From IMG/VR virus record IMGVR_UViG_3300024999_000173, positions 1-45,432 of that record: DNA of 45,432 bases. The stretch is one strand, 5' to 3'. The stretch's first letter is position 1. Every line of letters begins with the position of its first letter. Positions 13,743 through 29,127 of the stretch are shown one piece after another. The notes under the pieces were generated by a model. That model was not told where the DNA came from, made no database searches, and saw only the letters and a program-made list of their open reading frames with translations. A program made the position numbers and the translations under genes. Source of the DNA: a virus.

Positions 13743-14066
13743 ATGAAGATCCTTACAAAAGAAGAACTGGCCATGGTCCAATGGATCGATAACGCCAGCT
13801 ACTACGAATTATTAAGATATTGGCGGTTCTTGCCGATCGGACACCCCCTGCTGCAGGGTGAGATAGGCAGATATTTCATCGATTCGTTCTTCCACAAAAA
13901 GAAGAAATGTTCTGATCCCGTAATGGTAAGCAAGATGGTTGGTTGGGCCGATGTAAAGGTCGTGGACAAGGTTTGGATGTTGCCGGAAACCACCCCCCTG
14001 CCGCACCCATCAGAAGAGCTTACCAAGGCCCTGGATCAGATAAAAAACAAACTAGGAGGAAAATAA
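13743..14066 (+). CDS. Conserved small phage protein (YYELLRYWRF type)
   Basis: The ATG at 13743 has GAGG just upstream within the previous stop region. An in-frame ATG at 13725 would lie inside that gene. The 107-residue product begins MKILTKEELAMVQWIDNAS and continues YYELLRYWRFLPIGHPLLQG, a pattern common in small early proteins of many tailed phages with no known function. Its stop overlaps the ATG of the Cys-repeat gene (TAATG). Confidence 0.7.
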   Translation: MKILTKEELAMVQWIDNASYYELLRYWRFLPIGHPLLQGEIGRYFIDSFFHKKKKCSDPVMVSKMVGWADVKVVDKVWMLPETTPLPHPSEELTKALDQIKNKLGGK

Positions 14067-14590
14067 TGGAAAAGATTGACGACAGATGGGTCGACGAAAA
14101 AGGCAATTCCTGGAACTGCGATTATTATTCCAAAGGTATGGCAGAACAGAACAGCAAATCATTAATTGGTTGTAGTGGTTGTAGTGATTGTAGTGATTGT
14201 AGTTATTGTAGTGGTTGTCGTGATTGTAGTGATTGTAGTGATTGTAGTTATTGTAGTGGTTGTCGTGGTTGTCGTGGTTGTCGTGGTTGTCGTGATTGTA
14301 GTGATTGTAGTGATTGTAGTGATTGTCGTGATTGTAGTGATTGTCGTGGTTGTCGTGGTTGTAGTGATTTTAAAAGAAACCCACAAAGGATCGTTTCGCC
14401 CCGGATGGGTTCACGAAACGAACAGACTATAGTTTATTGGGACTGTGACATTTTCCTGGTCCAGTGTGGGTGTTTTAGTGGAACTCTTTTACAGTTTGAA
14501 AACACAGTAGTTGATCGCTATGGGGCCAATGAACACGGGAACAGGTACTTGGATTTTATTAATCTAGTCTGGACAATGATGGAAGTGTAA
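14066..14590 (+). CDS. Cys-triplet repeat protein
   Basis: This 174-residue protein starts at 14066 after AGGAGGAAAATA. Residues 36-101 consist of 22 uninterrupted triplets, each beginning with Cys (CSD, CSG, CSY, CRD, CRG). A Cys every third residue suggests a narrow beta-solenoid or a metal-binding or disulfide-locked rod. The flanks are ordinary: an N-terminal WVDEKGNSWNCDYYSKG segment and a C-terminal globular domain (about residues 102-174) with NEQTIVYWDCDIFLVQCGCF. The function is unknown. A GC-rich hairpin starts immediately after the stop. Confidence 0.8.
   Translation: MEKIDDRWVDEKGNSWNCDYYSKGMAEQNSKSLIGCSGCSDCSDCSYCSGCRDCSDCSDCSYCSGCRGCRGCRGCRDCSDCSDCSDCRDCSDCRGCRGCSDFKRNPQRIVSPRMGSRNEQTIVYWDCDIFLVQCGCFSGTLLQFENTVVDRYGANEHGNRYLDFINLVWTMMEV
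14171..14368 (+). repeat. 22 x 9-bp coding repeat
   Basis: The unit is TGT (A/C)GT (G/T)(A/G)T, 22 copies without interruption. Only three positions of nine vary, so the variation is confined to what gives Ser/Arg at position 2 and Asp/Gly/Tyr at position 3. Confidence 0.95.
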
Positions 14591-16456: not shown

Positions 16457-16771
16457 ATGGAAGTATTAAATTATAAAGGGTCCAGGATCAGGACCATCTT
16501 TAAAGGCGACAAGATCTATATGTCAGCCGGGGATATGGCCAAGGCAATTGACATGTCGAACGGTAGAATTACCAGGTTATACCTGGCCGAGGGGGAAATG
16601 ACAACTATTGAGCTACCGACTCCTGGAGGGATACAGCCGGTACGTATGATTGAAACCATGGGTATTGTAAAGGTACTGGGCAGGAGTAAAAAACCTGAGT
16701 CAAGCCAGTTCCTACAGTGGTTCTTTGATATTATCATCAACCGGAGGGAAGAGGCATGCTCAATAAGATAA
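16457..16771 (+). CDS. BRO-N domain protein (antirepressor-like)
   Basis: The start was placed at the ATG at 16457 rather than upstream in-frame codons that overlap the zinc-knuckle gene. The 104 residues form a BRO-N domain: a short beta start (FKGDKIYMSAGDMAKAIDMS), then RITRLYLAEGEMTTIELPTPGG, then a helical end (FLQWFFDIIINRREEA). BRO-N domains bind DNA and occur in phage antirepressors. There is no C-terminal KilA or Ant domain. It sits right before the primase. Confidence 0.75.
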   Translation: MEVLNYKGSRIRTIFKGDKIYMSAGDMAKAIDMSNGRITRLYLAEGEMTTIELPTPGGIQPVRMIETMGIVKVLGRSKKPESSQFLQWFFDIIINRREEACSIR

Positions 16772-18288
16772 AGAAGCTGTTCAGAGTGGATAAACCGGGT
16801 CGCCACGCCCTGCTGGATGGCGGGTTTCCAAAATGGTTAAATACAGAACCAGATTGGCAAGCCCACCTGGATGGCAAGATGGCCCTGTGCATTACCCCCC
16901 TGGGTTTTGATAACACGTGTTATTTTGGTGCCCTAGATATTGATGCCAAGGGCGATGCTCCACCCATCAATCATGAAAGATTACAGCACTTTATCAAGGA
17001 ACACTCTCTGCCGCTCAACCTGTTTTACTCCCAATCTGGCAAAGGGGCGCATGCCTACATTTTTTCCCCTTATCCGGTATCTGCAACCGATATGAGGGCC
17101 ACTCTCCGGCTATTTTCCGTTCTGATTTCCCACCTCATAAGCCCTGCCAACGGGATAGAGATTTTTCCCAAACAAGACGTATTAGAAGCCGGGGGTGACG
17201 GCAACTGTATCAGGCCCCCCTGGTTTGGTGACAGATGCCAGCCCCTTTTTATGGGCGAACCAATCGTCCGTCAGTTGGTTTCCCTGCCGCAGTGCCTTTC
17301 CGTCCTGCCGGAAGAAGGAGACAGAAACAATTTTGTTTATCACATGACCAATTTCCTGGTTTTATGTGAAGTTAACAACGTTAAAGGGTTGATGTACATC
17401 CTCAACGAGAATTTAGATTTTCCGTTAACCGAGGTTGAAGTAGATAGAACAGTGGCTTCTGCCCATCGACAACGAGGAAGAAAAGGGGCAGGGTTTGGTT
17501 TGGGTTGTTTTCACTGCCCGGATACCAGGAAGGACAAATGCAAATTCTCGTCTCAATTAAGGGTGAAAGAAACCTACGACGCAGTATCCATTGAAATTGT
17601 CCATTATATTGCAGAGGATCCGAAGATCCGGGTAACAGTCGATAGTAAATCATTGGTATTTTCAGTCGATGATGTGTTCAATAACCACAAGGTCAGGCTG
17701 GACTTTATTATGAAGCACCGGATCACAGACGTACCGATGATGAAAAAGAGCGAGTGGACCCAGATGGTACACACTATGCTGGAGGAAGCAGAACATGTTG
17801 ATATTGTGACGCACCGTGATAAAGGCCATTTCATCATACAGCAACTTAAAAAGTGGTCCAAGGATTTTAAGCCAGGGGTGTCTTACCTCTATTCTGGAAC
17901 ACCTGTCTTTATTTCAGATGATGAAGTAATGATGTTTTCCCATGACGTTTATAACCGGTTTGTTATTACTGGCATCCAGGGCATCACACGGGACGATGTT
18001 AATATAACCCTGGAATCGATCGGCAAGTTGACGATCGTCAACGGATCTCCTGCCATCAAGATCCCCGTAAACCTTCTTGGAGTAAGTACCCCTGGTCTGG
18101 AAATCCCTCTCATTAATGATATGGACCCGACCGAGGTAATTGTAGACAACAATAGCGAGGGCAGGGTTGTTTTCAAAGATAAAAATGGGGCCAGGATCGA
18201 GTTAACCAACACCTTTATTAAAGAGCACCCGGATATCCAAAGGAAGATCCTAGAAAAGACGCAGACAGGCATACATGTAAATTTCTGA
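16756..18288 (+). CDS. Archaeo-eukaryotic-type primase (TOTE-like)
   Basis: This 510-residue protein would make primers for phage DNA synthesis. The N-terminal half carries the catalytic signature of AEP primases: hydrophobic-DID (D61, D63), SGKGAH (residues 94-99, the nucleotide-binding SxH), and GIEIFPKQ...GDGNCIRPPWF (about 135-160), the pattern of the TOTE/PrimPol-type primase. A Cys cluster near 250-265 (CFHCPDTRKDKC) could bind zinc, as in primase C-terminal regions. No helicase domain is fused. The start overlaps the BRO-N gene by 16 bp and has GGAGGG. Confidence 0.85.
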   Translation: MLNKIKKLFRVDKPGRHALLDGGFPKWLNTEPDWQAHLDGKMALCITPLGFDNTCYFGALDIDAKGDAPPINHERLQHFIKEHSLPLNLFYSQSGKGAHAYIFSPYPVSATDMRATLRLFSVLISHLISPANGIEIFPKQDVLEAGGDGNCIRPPWFGDRCQPLFMGEPIVRQLVSLPQCLSVLPEEGDRNNFVYHMTNFLVLCEVNNVKGLMYILNENLDFPLTEVEVDRTVASAHRQRGRKGAGFGLGCFHCPDTRKDKCKFSSQLRVKETYDAVSIEIVHYIAEDPKIRVTVDSKSLVFSVDDVFNNHKVRLDFIMKHRITDVPMMKKSEWTQMVHTMLEEAEHVDIVTHRDKGHFIIQQLKKWSKDFKPGVSYLYSGTPVFISDDEVMMFSHDVYNRFVITGIQGITRDDVNITLESIGKLTIVNGSPAIKIPVNLLGVSTPGLEIPLINDMDPTEVIVDNNSEGRVVFKDKNGARIELTNTFIKEHPDIQRKILEKTQTGIHVNF

Positions 18289-23186: not shown

Positions 23187-23502
23187 CCAAACAGTAATTA
23201 AGTGCAAGGGAAACGTAAATCTTGAAGTAGGGCAAGATCAATTAACAATCTGTGGCCAACCGCTGGAAATATATATTGAAGTGGCCAGAGAACGGATTAG
23301 GCAAGAAACAAAATGGGGGCAGCAGAATCATCAGCCGATAATATGGTCAAATATCCTTGGTGAAGAATTTGGGGAAGTTTACAAGGCGATAAACGAGGCC
23401 ATATTTAATGGTTCTTCGTGGCTTGACTATCGAGAGGAATTGGTACAGGTAGCGGCAGTGGCCATCGCTGCGGTGGAATCACTCGACAGAAACACCAAAT
23501 GA
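23173..23502 (+). CDS. MazG-like NTP pyrophosphohydrolase
   Basis: This 109-residue protein would hydrolyse (d)NTPs to monophosphate and pyrophosphate. The all-alpha MazG pattern is visible: ARERIRQETKWGQQNH (about residues 38-53), the Mg-binding EExxE at GEEFGEV (64, 65, 68), and YREELVQVAAVA (86-97), in which the usual Asp of ExxD is Gln. In Z-DNA phages a MazG-type enzyme (MazZ) makes dGMP for PurZ. This gene sits directly before the polymerase with a 4-bp overlap and is one of two MazZ candidates. Residues 1-30 are an extra beta-like lead. Confidence 0.78.
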   Translation: MSGSNQTVIKCKGNVNLEVGQDQLTICGQPLEIYIEVARERIRQETKWGQQNHQPIIWSNILGEEFGEVYKAINEAIFNGSSWLDYREELVQVAAVAIAAVESLDRNTK

Positions 23503-25268
23503 CTAGGGAACTATTTTTTGATACTGAGGGCACCGGTCTTAATATGATCAGTGGTGCCGACAGGGCAACAGACATTTCATATGCCATGGGTGATGGCCCT
23601 GTAAAATACGTAGACCTTCGCGCTGATTCCCCGGAAGAATTTATTAAGATGGTAGATGATGCGGAAGTAATTGTGGCCCACGGCACCAAATTCGACGCGC
23701 ATAGTCTGCGTACTATCGGCATTGACATCTCAAATAAGAACCTGGATTGTACCCTGGTCCGGGCACAGTTGATTGACGAGCACAAGCTGACTTATGATCT
23801 GGACTCTCTCACCGGCATGAAGGTCAACATTATTGATGATCTGGCTGCCATGTTCGGTGGCAGGGCTACCAAGAACGTCCAAATGCCGAATCTACACAAG
23901 GCACCCAGGGATTTTAAGGAAAAGTATGCCGTTGGTGATGTCCTGGCTATGCGGTCACTATACCGACAGCAGGAGGGTAAATTACCCCCGGTCCACGCCC
24001 TGGAAAAAGAGGTCCTTAATATCCTGATCAAGATGGAACAGAAGGGAATCCGGGTAGACGGCGATCGGCTGGACAAGGCAAAAAGAGATGTACAACGGTT
24101 AATCGATCGGACCCAAAAAGAACTGAACGAAATGGCGGGGAAAGAGGTCAATGTTAACTCTACTCCCCAAATGCGCGATTTACTTATAGCCACGGAGGTG
24201 CAAGATGGACGAGTGGTGCCGAAAACTAAAGCTGGCAAATGCGTACTTATTGATGGCACTCTTGCTGATAAAACTAAAACGGGTGGAGTTTCTCTTAATG
24301 CTGAAACGCTGGAGGAAATGTCGCACCCGATTGCCGAAGCCATTCTTAAAGTAAGAAAGTATCGTAAGATCCATGACACCTTCATTGTGTCGCAGCTGAT
24401 GGGCCATCAGACCAGGGGAAGAGTACACCCCAATTTTAATCAAACACGGGTTGTGACGGGCCGGTTGTCCTGTAATAATCCCAACCTTCAGGCCGTACCG
24501 AAAAGGGACCCGGAGATGAAGGCCATCCTTCGTCCTCTTTTTTTGCCGGACGATGGCGCACAGCTTTTAAAATGCGACTATGACCAATCAGACGTTCGGG
24601 GATTTGCCCACTACATTTATTCGGTGACCAACGACAAGAATCACCCGATTCTGCAGGCTTACCAGAAGGACCCGGATACTGATTTTCATACTTTCGTATC
24701 AGAGTTATTGGGGATTCGCAGGAATCCCGGACCAGGGGGAGGGGCAAACGCCAAACAGATTAACCTAGCCATGATTTTTAATATGGGCATGGGGAAGCTA
24801 GCCAAACAAATGGGACTGCCGTATGAGGAGGAAATCGGCAGGAATAAGAAAGTTTACTTGAAGCCGGGGCAGGAAGCTATTGACGTTTTCAACATGTACC
24901 ACAGCAAAATCCCCGGTGCAGCAGACATGGCACAGATGGCATCGTCTATTGCTGCCAGCCGGGGTTATGTGACATCGATCTGTGGAAGGCACCTACGATT
25001 TCCGGATAAACGGTTCACCTACAAGGCCAGTGGCTATCTTTACCAGAGCTTTACTGCCGATCTGATAAAAAAGGCCATGGTAGAAACGGCCAAGATAGTT
25101 GTGCCACAGCTTTCAGTACATGATGAATTGTTATTCAGCATTTACGACAAGGAAACGGCTTTCGCCATTCAGAAAGTTATGCAGGAAGTATTTGCGAACC
25201 TGACGGTAATTCCGATCAGGACAAAGCCAGAAGTTGGTCGTTCATGGGGGGAGGTTAATTTTATATGA
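23499..25268 (+). CDS. dpoZ: Family A DNA polymerase with 3'-5' exonuclease (DpoZ candidate)
   Basis: This 589-residue polymerase has no 5'-3' exonuclease domain. The proofreading domain shows DTE (D8, E10), HGTKFDAH (D66) and YAVGD (about 145-149). Polymerase motif A is DYDQSDVR (360-367, versus the usual DYSQIELR), motif B KQINLAMIFNMGMG (from K419) and motif C VHDE (H541-E543). Catalytic D360 and D542 are present. Polymerases that co-occur with PurZ (DpoZ) prefer dZTP over dATP; whether this one does cannot be read from the motifs, and the assignment rests on the linked purZ and datZ. It has ATGA overlaps at both ends. Confidence 0.9.
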   Translation: MTRELFFDTEGTGLNMISGADRATDISYAMGDGPVKYVDLRADSPEEFIKMVDDAEVIVAHGTKFDAHSLRTIGIDISNKNLDCTLVRAQLIDEHKLTYDLDSLTGMKVNIIDDLAAMFGGRATKNVQMPNLHKAPRDFKEKYAVGDVLAMRSLYRQQEGKLPPVHALEKEVLNILIKMEQKGIRVDGDRLDKAKRDVQRLIDRTQKELNEMAGKEVNVNSTPQMRDLLIATEVQDGRVVPKTKAGKCVLIDGTLADKTKTGGVSLNAETLEEMSHPIAEAILKVRKYRKIHDTFIVSQLMGHQTRGRVHPNFNQTRVVTGRLSCNNPNLQAVPKRDPEMKAILRPLFLPDDGAQLLKCDYDQSDVRGFAHYIYSVTNDKNHPILQAYQKDPDTDFHTFVSELLGIRRNPGPGGGANAKQINLAMIFNMGMGKLAKQMGLPYEEEIGRNKKVYLKPGQEAIDVFNMYHSKIPGAADMAQMASSIAASRGYVTSICGRHLRFPDKRFTYKASGYLYQSFTADLIKKAMVETAKIVVPQLSVHDELLFSIYDKETAFAIQKVMQEVFANLTVIPIRTKPEVGRSWGEVNFI

Positions 25269-25402
25269 CATGTAATAATTGCGGGGGGACGATGGTTGGA
25301 GATGGAGTAACAGAACCCATCCGATGTGAAAACGTGGAACTTGGCGATTGGGAGTATAGAGAACCCGATTGTAATCCGATTGATTGCGAGGACGAGAAAT
25401 GA
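25265..25402 (+). CDS. 45-residue Cys-containing acidic protein
   Basis: The start overlaps the polymerase stop and the stop overlaps the SSB start. It begins MTCNNCGGTMVGDG, giving one CxxC, with three further single Cys and a very acidic C-terminus (IDCEDEK). It may bind zinc. The function is unknown. Confidence 0.55.
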   Translation: MTCNNCGGTMVGDGVTEPIRCENVELGDWEYREPDCNPIDCEDEK

Positions 25403-25806
25403 TCAACGAGGTAAGATTAATAGGCAATGTGGGGCAGGACCCCAGGATCAACAAAAACAGCAAAGGAACCATGGCCACTTTTTCTGTTGCCACTACTGAG
25501 AAATGGAAGGATAAGCGGACCGGTGATTGGCAGGAAAAGACGGAGTGGCACAAATGCGTTGCCTTCGGCTATCCGGCAGACTATGTTGACCAGTACCTGG
25601 AAAAGGGTGCTCTGGTTTATGTCGAGGGGTCAATGCAGTATGGTAAGTATGAACGGGACGGCGTTGAGATCCCTACTGCCGAGGTCAAAGCACAAAAAGT
25701 AAAAATTTTAAAGAAACAGGGGGATCGAGACAATCAGGCCAGGGACGGGAACAAGTCTACGGACAACGGGTACATGGGCAGCACAGGTTCTGACGTACCA
25801 TTTTAA
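25399..25806 (+). CDS. ssb: Single-stranded DNA-binding protein
   Basis: The start is at 25399 (MINEVRLIGNVGQDP), in the stop of the previous small gene; an in-frame upstream codon is unnecessary. The 135 residues form an OB-fold SSB: VRLIGNVGQDP, TMATFSVATTEKW, EWHKCVAFGYPADYVDQYLEKGALVYVEG. A disordered tail follows, ending in the acidic DVPF tip that recruits partner proteins in bacterial SSBs. It would protect the template during replication. The length is slightly below bacterial SSB. Confidence 0.95.
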   Translation: MINEVRLIGNVGQDPRINKNSKGTMATFSVATTEKWKDKRTGDWQEKTEWHKCVAFGYPADYVDQYLEKGALVYVEGSMQYGKYERDGVEIPTAEVKAQKVKILKKQGDRDNQARDGNKSTDNGYMGSTGSDVPF

Positions 25807-25815
25807 GGAGACATT

Positions 25816-26148
25816 ATGAAATGTTGCACTCTTGAGTGTTACTCTGTGGCAATGGCCAAATCAACAGACACCGACAGGGAGTTCTGTATTGAATGCGCCA
25901 TCAAGATTGCCAAGCACTTTGGCCCGGATAAGATAGTGACTTTGCCGGGAATGAGGTTTCCCTGGGATTACGGGGTAGACGGCCACTGCCCCCATTGCGG
26001 TATAAGTTACAACCGGTACCTGATCAATGTTACTGGTGATTGCCCCGCATGTAAAGCCCCACTGCCGGAGTATAAACGGCCAACCTTGGAAATGAAACCG
26101 TGGGACGACGACAGAAAAATAGAGTATCGGGAAGGCCCACACGACTAA
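25816..26148 (+). CDS. Zinc-ribbon protein
   Basis: This 110-residue protein has N-terminal single Cys residues (KCCTLECYSV, FCIECAIKIAKHFG) and then a classical ribbon CPHCGISYNRYLINVTGDCPAC (about residues 57-78). An AAGGAG site precedes the start. It is placed between SSB and purZ. The function is unknown; two zinc sites are likely. Confidence 0.65.
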   Translation: MKCCTLECYSVAMAKSTDTDREFCIECAIKIAKHFGPDKIVTLPGMRFPWDYGVDGHCPHCGISYNRYLINVTGDCPACKAPLPEYKRPTLEMKPWDDDRKIEYREGPHD

Positions 26149-26384: not shown

Positions 26385-27401
26385 ATGAATGTACATGTTG
26401 TTTACGGCGGTCAGTTCGGCAGTGAGTCAAAACGGTTGTTTACCGAGTATTACTGCAAGAATTGGCAGCCAGGGGCCATCATTACCAATGCTATGCCCAA
26501 CAGCGGCGGATTTGATAGTGTAGGCGACAAATGGTCCACCCTGCCGATCGGCTACCCAGCTACCTTGATGATTTCCCCTGGATCAGTGATTAATCTCGAT
26601 AATCTCAAGAAAGAGATTAAGCAGCTACCGAAAGGGGCCAAGGTAGTCATTCACGAAAATGCAGCAGTGATCGACGATAGTCACTTCACAAGTGAAAAGG
26701 ACTATGTTCGGGTTGGTTCTACCATGACCGGGGGAGCAGCTGCTGCAAAACAGAAAATGGACCGGGACCCAAGTGCACGAATCCTGGCCAGGGATTATTT
26801 TGAAGACACCCTGAACAATGCCGCCTGGATACGGGAATTGCACAAACACGATAAGGTCCTAGCGGTCTGTGCACAGGGTCACAGTCTGTCGCTCAATTTC
26901 GGTTTCTGGCCATACACTACCAGCAGGAATACCAGTCCTGCTCAAGTCATTGCCGATGCCGGAATTTCTCCGATGGCAGTTAAACGGATTATTGGCTGTT
27001 TTCGGACCTTCCCAATTCGGGTATCCAACCGATTCGATGAAATGGGAGAAATGGTGGGTTGGTCCGGTCCCTGTTATTCTGACCAGGAGGAATTGTCCTG
27101 GGAAGATATCGGGGTTCCGCAGGAGTTTACCAGTGTCAGCAAAAAGGTTCGTAGAGTATTTACATTTTCACATCAGCAATTGGTCGAATCAGTCCTGCTC
27201 AATGGCACCACCGATGTCTTTCTCGGTTTTATCAATTATTTGCCGGTCTACATGCAGGATGATTTTTTCCGGGCTGTGCGGGACACCTGCCTAAATAACG
27301 GGGCCAATTTATCGTGGATCGGTTGCGGTAAGACCACTGACGACATCTTTTCCCGCATTAGTGATAAAGGATATGGTTTTGACATTTCCTGGATAAAGTA
27401 A
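26385..27401 (+). CDS. purZ: 2-amino-dAMP (dZMP) precursor synthetase PurZ, adenylosuccinate-synthetase family
   Basis: This 338-residue protein is predicted to join Asp to dGMP using ATP or dATP, giving N6-succino-2-amino-dAMP, which host PurB converts to dZMP. PurA-family marks are the P-loop GGQFGSESK (residues 8-16), GSTMTGGAAAAKQKMDRD (111-128), AQGHSLSLNFG (163-173), WPYTTSRNTSPAQVI and RTFPIRVSN. The catalytic Asp of PurA (GDEGKGK) is Ser13, the replacement described for PurZ, which makes room for the 2-amino group. The NNAGHT loop is NSGGFD (39-44), so the usual active-site His is not in place, which is odd. It is shorter than bacterial PurA (about 430). It has a strong ribosome site and a hairpin terminator. 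Confidence 0.9.
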   Translation: MNVHVVYGGQFGSESKRLFTEYYCKNWQPGAIITNAMPNSGGFDSVGDKWSTLPIGYPATLMISPGSVINLDNLKKEIKQLPKGAKVVIHENAAVIDDSHFTSEKDYVRVGSTMTGGAAAAKQKMDRDPSARILARDYFEDTLNNAAWIRELHKHDKVLAVCAQGHSLSLNFGFWPYTTSRNTSPAQVIADAGISPMAVKRIIGCFRTFPIRVSNRFDEMGEMVGWSGPCYSDQEELSWEDIGVPQEFTSVSKKVRRVFTFSHQQLVESVLLNGTTDVFLGFINYLPVYMQDDFFRAVRDTCLNNGANLSWIGCGKTTDDIFSRISDKGYGFDISWIK

Positions 27402-27441: not shown

Positions 27442-27861
27442 ATGGACCAGAAGTTTGGGCCAAAAATTCCATTTACCCTTGAAATAAATCCGGGGGGGAT
27501 GGAAGGGTTAAAAAAGGCCCTGGAACGGAAGAACAGGAAATGGGACGACGGCAAGTTAAAATACCACCTGATCCTGCCGCAGTTCCTGGAGTTGATGGCA
27601 GAAATTCTTACACGAGGTGAAATCAATCACCCAAAAGAACCAAACGGTACCCCCTCCTGGCAGTTGGTAGAAAAAGAGGCGTATGAGGATGCTCTATTTC
27701 GCCATTTTCAGGCATACCGCAGGGGGGAGATCATTGACCCGGACCCCAAGATGCCGACCGATCACATGGGCAACATTGCCGTAAACGCCATGTTCTTGTG
27801 GTGGTTTAATCGGCAGCGGGAAGGGTATCTGGGGGAAACTGACACAGTTAACGAGGACTAA
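27442..27861 (+). CDS. DUF5664-type dATP/dGTP diphosphohydrolase-like protein (MazZ candidate)
   Basis: This 139-residue protein contains RKWDDGKLKYHLILPQFLELMAEIL (from residue 32), EKEAYEDALFRHFQAYRRGE and DHMGNIAVNAMFLWWF. This is the helix pattern of the phage DUF5664 family, whose members are linked to dATP/dGTP pyrophosphohydrolases in Z-DNA phages. It would act on dGTP to feed dGMP to PurZ, or on dATP. It lies directly after purZ. With the MazG-like gene at 23173 it makes two possible sources of MazZ activity; sequence alone does not say which is active. Confidence 0.78.
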   Translation: MDQKFGPKIPFTLEINPGGMEGLKKALERKNRKWDDGKLKYHLILPQFLELMAEILTRGEINHPKEPNGTPSWQLVEKEAYEDALFRHFQAYRRGEIIDPDPKMPTDHMGNIAVNAMFLWWFNRQREGYLGETDTVNED

Positions 27862-27862
27862 T

Positions 27863-28063
27863 ATGCTACCAAAAATTCCGTCTTCCCTGGACGAGGCCAT
27901 GAAGACCACTTATGCGGGACCATGGCACATACGATATAACCCAAATAAGTGCGCTTGTCCTGTTTATGATTGCGGGGCAGGGCGGTATCTTCAGTGCCAA
28001 AACCCCAACGGGTACGGGGTTGATGGGATTTTTTGTAAAGGCCACAAGGAGCCAAAATCATGA
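27863..28063 (+). CDS. 66-residue Cys-rich protein
   Basis: The start follows GAGGACTAAT. Cys residues at CACPVYDCGAGRYLQC and FCKGH suggest a zinc or disulfide knot. WHIRYNPNKCACPVYDC gives a possible treble-clef. It lies between the two putative Z-pathway hydrolases and overlaps the second by 4 bp. The function is unknown. Confidence 0.6.
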   Translation: MLPKIPSSLDEAMKTTYAGPWHIRYNPNKCACPVYDCGAGRYLQCQNPNGYGVDGIFCKGHKEPKS

Positions 28064-28545
28064 CAGAAATAAGAGATCATTTTCCAGCACCGTTTGGAAA
28101 GCACCCGGAATTAAGGGCAGGAATCGTTCCCCGGTGGGCAATTATTAAAACATCAAAAACTCAATCCGTTGCAGAGCATTCCTACAACGTGGCAATGATA
28201 ACCCGGATCATTTTGACTGGCTTTATTTTGACCCCGCTGGATGACAATGATATTATCCTGATGGCCCTGGACCATGATTGGAAATCTGAGGTCTACACCG
28301 GAGATATCCCTAATCCTGCCAAAGTGCGTAACCCCAATGCAGAGGTCCTGTCGATCGAAGAAGCAATCATAAAGCTGGCAGACTGTATCGAGGGTTACGC
28401 TTTTATTAACAGGAATTGCAGCGACTCCACATCGGTAAAAATGTGGGTGATGGGCGATCTAGAAGTACAGATTAATGCCCTATGTAATTTTCTGGAAATA
28501 AACGGCAGGGACATCTGGCCTACAATCTCAGGGATGGTATTATAA
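28060..28545 (+). CDS. datZ: HD-domain dATP triphosphohydrolase DatZ
   Basis: This 161-residue protein is predicted to convert dATP to deoxyadenosine and triphosphate, clearing dATP so that only dZTP is available. The YfbR-like HD fold is clear: RWAII (25-29), SVAEHS (H40), DHDWKSEVYTGDIPNP (H72, D73, E77) and KLADCIEGY (D108), which together give the metal ligands H, HD, D. Cellular YfbR relatives act on dNMPs; linkage to purZ and the phage setting favour DatZ. It has ATGA coupling upstream. Confidence 0.85.
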   Translation: MTEIRDHFPAPFGKHPELRAGIVPRWAIIKTSKTQSVAEHSYNVAMITRIILTGFILTPLDDNDIILMALDHDWKSEVYTGDIPNPAKVRNPNAEVLSIEEAIIKLADCIEGYAFINRNCSDSTSVKMWVMGDLEVQINALCNFLEINGRDIWPTISGMVL

Positions 28546-29127
28546 ATGAAAAAGATTTTATTTGTTGATACGGAAACAACCGGCCTAGACCCTAAGATTA
28601 ACGGCATCCATCAGATCGCTGCTCAGATCGTTGTTGATGGCAAAATGGAAATGGAGTTTGATTTTAAATTCCGTCCACTCGACACCGAAAAGATCGAACC
28701 GGAGGCCCTGGCAGTGTCTGGTTTAACGGTAGAAGAAGTCATGGCCCGACCTTTATCGAGCAAGGACGTTTATAAAAAGATCGACTCGATTCTCTGCCAG
28801 TTTGTAAACAAGTATGATAAGCACGATAAAATGGTGATATCGGGCTATAATTGCAATTTCGACGCTCAATTTCTCAGCGAATGGTACAAGAAGCACAATA
28901 ACAAGTATTTCTTTGGCCTGTGCCATGGTGGAGCATACTTGGACGGCTTGACTATGGCCCTGCTACTGGAAATAAAAAAGGGAGAAAAGGTATTTTTCCC
29001 GGATCGGAAATTGGGTACGGTGGCAAAACACCTGGGTGTTCAATTGGATGATGCCCACGATGCCTTGGCCGACATTATCGCTACCAGGGACGTAATACGG
29101 TCCTTATGGAGGGAATTGGGGCTATGA
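28546..29127 (+). CDS. DnaQ-like 3'-5' exonuclease
   Basis: This 193-residue DEDDh exonuclease shows DTETTGL (D8, E10), GYNCNFDAQFL (second Asp), and HLGVQLDDAHDALADI (HD..A.AD, the His-containing third motif). It is a free-standing proofreading-type nuclease. The polymerase already has its own DEDDy domain, so this is a second one; it may act in recombination, mismatch removal or host DNA breakdown. It directly follows datZ. Confidence 0.88.
   Translation: MKKILFVDTETTGLDPKINGIHQIAAQIVVDGKMEMEFDFKFRPLDTEKIEPEALAVSGLTVEEVMARPLSSKDVYKKIDSILCQFVNKYDKHDKMVISGYNCNFDAQFLSEWYKKHNNKYFFGLCHGGAYLDGLTMALLLEIKKGEKVFFPDRKLGTVAKHLGVQLDDAHDALADIIATRDVIRSLWRELGL

Follow-up and report, generated by a model that had tools for sequence, protein, structure and literature searches.

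This locus encodes a homologue of PurZ (2-aminoadenylosuccinate synthase), a phage protein expected to contribute to synthesis of the alternative DNA base 2-aminoadenine (Z). Its catalytic loop lacks the usual His, and it raises the question of whether such a protein can still join dGMP and aspartate. It lies in a stretch of viral DNA of 45,432 nucleotides (IMG/VR record IMGVR_UViG_3300024999_000173), which is called the window here. We give about an even chance to the reading that the protein is a member of a divergent clade of PurZ, with a rebuilt phosphoryl-donor site, in which the joining of dGMP and aspartate has been retained. Among all the other PurZ, PurZ0, and PurA-like sequences examined, the donor half of the active site is practically invariant. 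Its loss in a constrained clade whose substrate half is kept offers a natural experiment on the roles of the His and the P-loop glycines.

The PurZ homologue and its fold

The open reading frame encodes a protein of 338 amino acids with Ser13 and is immediately preceded by a ribosome-binding-like sequence, GAGGAG. The protein matches the Pfam family Adenylsucc_synt (PF00709) at 62 bits and PHROG 1211, "2-aminooxy adenylosuccinate synthetase". With the curated NCBI model for PurZ (NF038379), it scores 209 bits over 271 residues, which is under the cut-off of 300 bits. The best solved relatives found by phmmer are the PurZ proteins of S-2L (7odx, 5e-44) and phiVC8, both of which keep PNAGHT. An AlphaFold2 model (60 window and viral-contig sequences; pLDDT 91, pTM 0.90) has the adenylosuccinate synthetase fold and matches solved PurZ over 318–327 residues. 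In VIA-align comparisons, the Z scores of the model were 41.9 against 7odx and 41.1 against 6tnh, with other folds scoring far lower.

The catalytic residues Asp13 and His41 of PurA are represented by Ser13 and Gly42 in the window protein. The Ser at the PurA Asp site, as in PurZ, is seen in both the translation and the alignment. The reading frame and the motifs GGQFGSESK, NSGGFD (residues 39–44), and AQGHSL with His166 are as described in the initial annotation. In place of the donor-site motifs GKG and NAGHT, the protein has SKR and NSGG--. Since it misses both the curated cut-off and these motifs, we assign it to a divergent PurZ clade and do not call it a confirmed PurZ enzyme. By descent and, as judged from its sequence, by its substrate site, the window protein is a PurZ relative. 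The features of the locus are listed in Table 1.

Table 1. Features of the purZ locus, in window coordinates
Feature	Position	Strand	Basis or remark
DNA polymerase A with 3'-5' exonuclease acids	23499..25268	+	nearest to Acinetobacter Z-phage DpoZ
Single-strand DNA-binding protein	25384..25806	+	PF00436
Cys-rich (zinc-ribbon-like) protein; lies upstream of purZ, conserved across the clade	25816..26148	+	no family match
PurZ homologue, 338 aa	26385..27401	+	PF00709 62 bits; PDB 7odx 5e-44; AF2 pLDDT 91
P-loop GGQFGSESKRL; Ser13 as in PurZ; Gly15 to Ser, Gly17 to Arg	26406..26438	+	alignment
Loop PNSGGFDS; Gly42 in the His52 column (S-2L numbering), next Thr-Tyr deleted	26496..26519	+	alignments
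V161-C162-A163-Q164-G165-H166; Gln164 (Q190 of S-2L) kept; His166 for the usual Tyr/Phe	26865..26882	+	alignment
Aspartate-loop motif TSVSKKVRR (others TTVT)	27129..27155	+	two Thr to Ser, rest kept
GFIN; adenine-contact Asn305 (S-2L) to Gly281; Phe and Asn kept	27225..27236	+	alignment
Lys316 at the S-2L adenine-contact Pro336	27330..27332	+	alignment
DUF5664 dATP/dGTP diphosphohydrolase-like protein, unfused to DUF550	27442..27861	+	PF18909 5.8e-22, alignment
Cys-containing protein, 66 aa, conserved in the clade	27863..28063	+	no family match
DatZ-like HD dATPase	28060..28545	+	metal ligands and R19/W20/I22/K81/K116 equivalents intact
RNase T/DEDD exonuclease	28546..29127	+	PF00929

Loss of the catalytic-loop His

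Alignment of the loop with S-2L and phiVC8 PurZ by phmmer and MAFFT pairs N39, S40, G41, and G42 with N49, A50, G51, and H52 of S-2L. In the MAFFT alignment (PNSGG--FDS versus PNAGHTYI), the Thr-Tyr next after the His is deleted and Phe43 lies beyond this two-residue gap; the phmmer alignment to S-2L alternatively sets F43 opposite T53. Thus, the His is missing from its aligned place, as first proposed, but the register differs slightly from the earlier one, with Gly42 in the His column and a shortened loop. Asn39, a dGMP contact, is retained.

We compared 258 other PurZ, PurZ0, and PurA-like sequences, which are not all independent because some contigs occur in both of the sets used. The first set contained 98 sequences from phage records and viral contigs. 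GKG was part of one pattern used to collect it, which biased the scan, and the search was therefore repeated with patterns taken solely from the C-terminal half. In this second set, the GKG glycines and the His occur in all 136 sequences that include an N-terminus. Overall, the His is present in 255/255 of the other homologues that cover the site, and none of them has Gly or Phe at this point of the loop. A general absence of the His among PurZ proteins is thereby ruled out, and its loss in the window protein is indeed unusual.

His166 had been put forward as a possible substitute. Most PurZ have Tyr or Phe in the corresponding column; 5/258 others have His. Since these five are ordinary PurZ with the standard His, His166 does not appear to be a specific replacement, and the case for it is weak.

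Changes at the donor site and conservation of the substrate pocket

The losses go beyond the His noted in the initial annotation. The P-loop positions Gly25 and Gly27 (S-2L numbering), each Gly in 254/255 others, are Ser and Arg at residues 15 and 17 of the window protein. Glu187 (S-2L numbering) is found in 258/258 others and is Val in the window and Val or Ile in its clade. The adenine contacts Asn and Pro are changed as well, whereas K16, G41, F282, N284, and G315 are retained. In the aspartate loop, whose role is described in PMC8342488, the two Thr-to-Ser changes are conservative and the basic Lys/Arg residues remain.

The dGMP pocket of solved PurZ is kept whole, including the Val that excludes the 2'-OH. 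With the ligand-contact columns published for S-2L PurZ (PMC8342488), family-rare residues occupy 0/15 separate dGMP-pocket columns versus 5/9 donor-contact columns (Fisher p=0.003), against a baseline in this protein that is already 24% (81/338). The five donor-contact columns deviate in all three members of the clade. Two comparably divergent homologues (L014 and L020) deviate at 10–16 conserved columns, yet they keep the His. E. coli PurA mutants at the corresponding His and P-loop are severely impaired.

A constrained clade

The clade rests on three distinct sequences. One further contig (L002) shows complete identity with the window across 11,121 bases. Two relatives (L023 and L024) are 72–73% identical to the window protein and have every donor-site change in common with it. 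L023 is contig JROS01000092.1, which is assigned to Desulfobulbus sp. Tol-SR. Another contig (L103) carries a related polymerase and ends before purZ. Specific scans found no further members, and a search of phage records with this subgroup gave no megablast match and best tblastn matches of <60% identity. In a quick tree with PurZ0 as the outgroup, the three sequences form one clade with a support of 100 and a long stem, whose place among PurZ is not resolved by this tree.

The dN/dS ratio within the clade is 0.11–0.12. Since dS is near saturation in comparisons with the window, the value for L023 and L024 (dN 0.079, dS 0.728, dN/dS 0.11) is the reliable one. The identical second contig and the two relatives with the same changes rule out a sequencing error or chance, and the dN/dS ratio and intact frames rule out a decaying gene. 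Changes that are common to the relatives together with a dN/dS of about 0.11 indicate a constrained clade. At the level of sequence, this partly supports the earlier proposal of a divergent subgroup of PurZ whose mechanism may have changed: the clade is distinct, and its rebuilt donor site is conserved.

These data also bear on a conservative alternative, in which the protein is an ordinary ATP/dATP-dependent PurZ that tolerates the loop changes with its mechanism really unchanged. The predicted fold is nearly identical to that of PurZ, K16 and the other residues listed above are kept, and all superfamily members known to us use a nucleoside triphosphate (NTP). However, 0/255 others tolerate the changes, even though equally divergent proteins are among them, and the clade has conserved the changes despite a dS of about 0.7–1.6. 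We regard an unchanged mechanism as rather improbable.

Gene neighborhood

The gene order of helicase, PolA, SSB, PurZ, DUF5664, DatZ, and exonuclease is that of Z-phages such as SH-Ab 15497. The window also contains head, portal, terminase, and tape-measure genes of a long-tailed phage. By the DpoZ criteria of PMC8599892, its PolA has Phe at the Tyr-to-Phe459 site and the helix-O insertion, and lacks insertion 1 of phiVC8 DpoZ. This insertion pattern by itself does not identify a Z-phage, as two of the three insertions also occur in a phage that has no Z genes (PMC8599892). In the neighboring DatZ, the residue roles follow PMC8065100, in which Trp and Ile select dATP. The genomes have one PurZ each, with no second PurZ found. 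MazZ/DUF550 (PF04447) gave no match, as did the control search; DUF5664 is present instead.

Some other genes of the window are recorded here as observations. Two small Cys-rich proteins lie around purZ and are possible partners. The protein encoded at 13943–14590 contains about 20 C-x-x repeats in tandem (CSDCSDCSYCSGC...) and matches PHROGs of unknown function. An archaeo-eukaryotic primase domain of the TOTE conflict-system type is encoded at 16756–18288, in the phage replication module.

The neighborhood is relevant to the possibility that synthase function has been lost and that the protein is a dGMP-binding pseudoenzyme or regulator with another role, while the phage uses A-DNA or obtains Z otherwise. 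Four near-invariant donor-phosphate/P-loop positions and the invariant Glu have changed together while the dGMP pocket is kept, which counts against an active PurZ. However, this reading fits badly with the intact DatZ next door, since an active-looking DatZ would leave a phage that made no Z short of dATP. The aspartate-loop Lys/Arg and Gln164 are also retained. As for another way of making Z, no NDT-family match (PF05014; dmtZ) was found in the window or its relatives, and thus nothing that would suggest the DmtZ route; a divergent NDT could escape such a search, and the records may be fragments. Loss of synthase function is unlikely in our view.

The phosphoryl donor

The most economical reading is a working PurZ whose donor site has been rebuilt: both the pathway partners and the substrate half of the site have been retained, and selection acts on the gene. 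The window would then belong to a lineage of siphophages that carry a Z-DNA-type gene cluster, and this protein would serve as their PurZ and most likely makes 2-amino-deoxyadenylosuccinate from dGMP and aspartate. The neighboring dGTP hydrolase would supply the substrate, and DatZ would remove dATP. The donor site appears to have been rebuilt through the loss of the His and the next Thr, the replacement of P-loop glycines by Ser and Arg, and the altered adenine contacts. Charge may now be provided by residues such as K16, R17, and K316. The donor is probably still an NTP such as ATP or dATP, bound differently. The retention of Phe282, Asn284, and Gly315 in the adenine pocket argues against a wholesale change of donor, and the conservation of Phe282 and Asn284 favors a purine still in the site.

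A more radical possibility is that a small inorganic donor, such as pyrophosphate (PPi) or polyphosphate, replaces ATP, as in the PPi-dependent phosphofructokinases. A sulfate reducer, which makes PPi during sulfate activation, is only a possible host, and the argument is one of analogy only. Phosphofructokinases that depend on PPi emerged as Lys or Asp replaced glycines in the nucleotide loop (PMC12203962). The P-loop changes of Gly to Arg and Gly to Ser, together with the lost adenine contacts, parallel these signatures, but a lone Lys is not diagnostic of PPi use (PMC12203962). The adjoining DUF5664-type hydrolase, an activity described in PMC12884076, would release PPi. Against this, the stacking Phe282 and Asn284 are still conserved. 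A priori, ATP or dATP in a different binding mode is the likelier donor, and it seems improbable that this PurZ activates dGMP with a non-ATP donor and without the catalytic-loop His. We know of no enzyme with the adenylosuccinate synthetase fold that is not NTP-driven. If this reading were true, the protein would be the first. The clade could thus reveal a different energy source for Z-DNA synthesis and could guide assays toward producing 2-aminoadenine DNA.

Comparison with known systems

PurA belongs to the same superfamily and has the same fold, with the Asp13 and His that the window protein lacks. Two long PurA-like phage proteins (472 aa, L008:7788–9206; 413 aa, L007:7761–9002) also have Ser at the Asp13 site (GSSGK); both have large insertions, keep the His, and adjoin a nucleotide-kinase-like gene. 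PurZ0 (7vf6; Microbacterium phage Cicada, L020) begins its P-loop with GGQ(F/Y)GSE like the window protein but keeps the His and GSEAKG, and the DmtZ-type NDT gene is not found in the window phage.

Acinetobacter phage SH-Ab 15497 and Salmonella phage PMBT28 have the gene order from helicase to DatZ as in the window, as well as the nearest polymerases. However, their DUF5664 is fused to DUF550, and their PurZ proteins, at about 36% identity, have normal NAGHT and GKG motifs. The solved PurZ proteins of cyanophage S-2L (7odx) and vibriophage phiVC8 (6fko, 6fm1, 6tnh) resemble the window protein in the fold, the Ser at the Asp13 site, the basic residues of the aspartate loop, and the dGMP pocket, including the Val241 and Arg146 equivalents. 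Linkage to DatZ is also common to these phages, and phiVC8 has a DpoZ-like polymerase. The window protein differs from both in the absence of the catalytic-loop His and Thr, the P-loop (GSESKR versus GSTGKG), the replacement of Glu187 by Val/Ile in the clade, of Asn305 by Gly, and of Pro336 by Lys, and short deletions at several points between residues 42 and 61.
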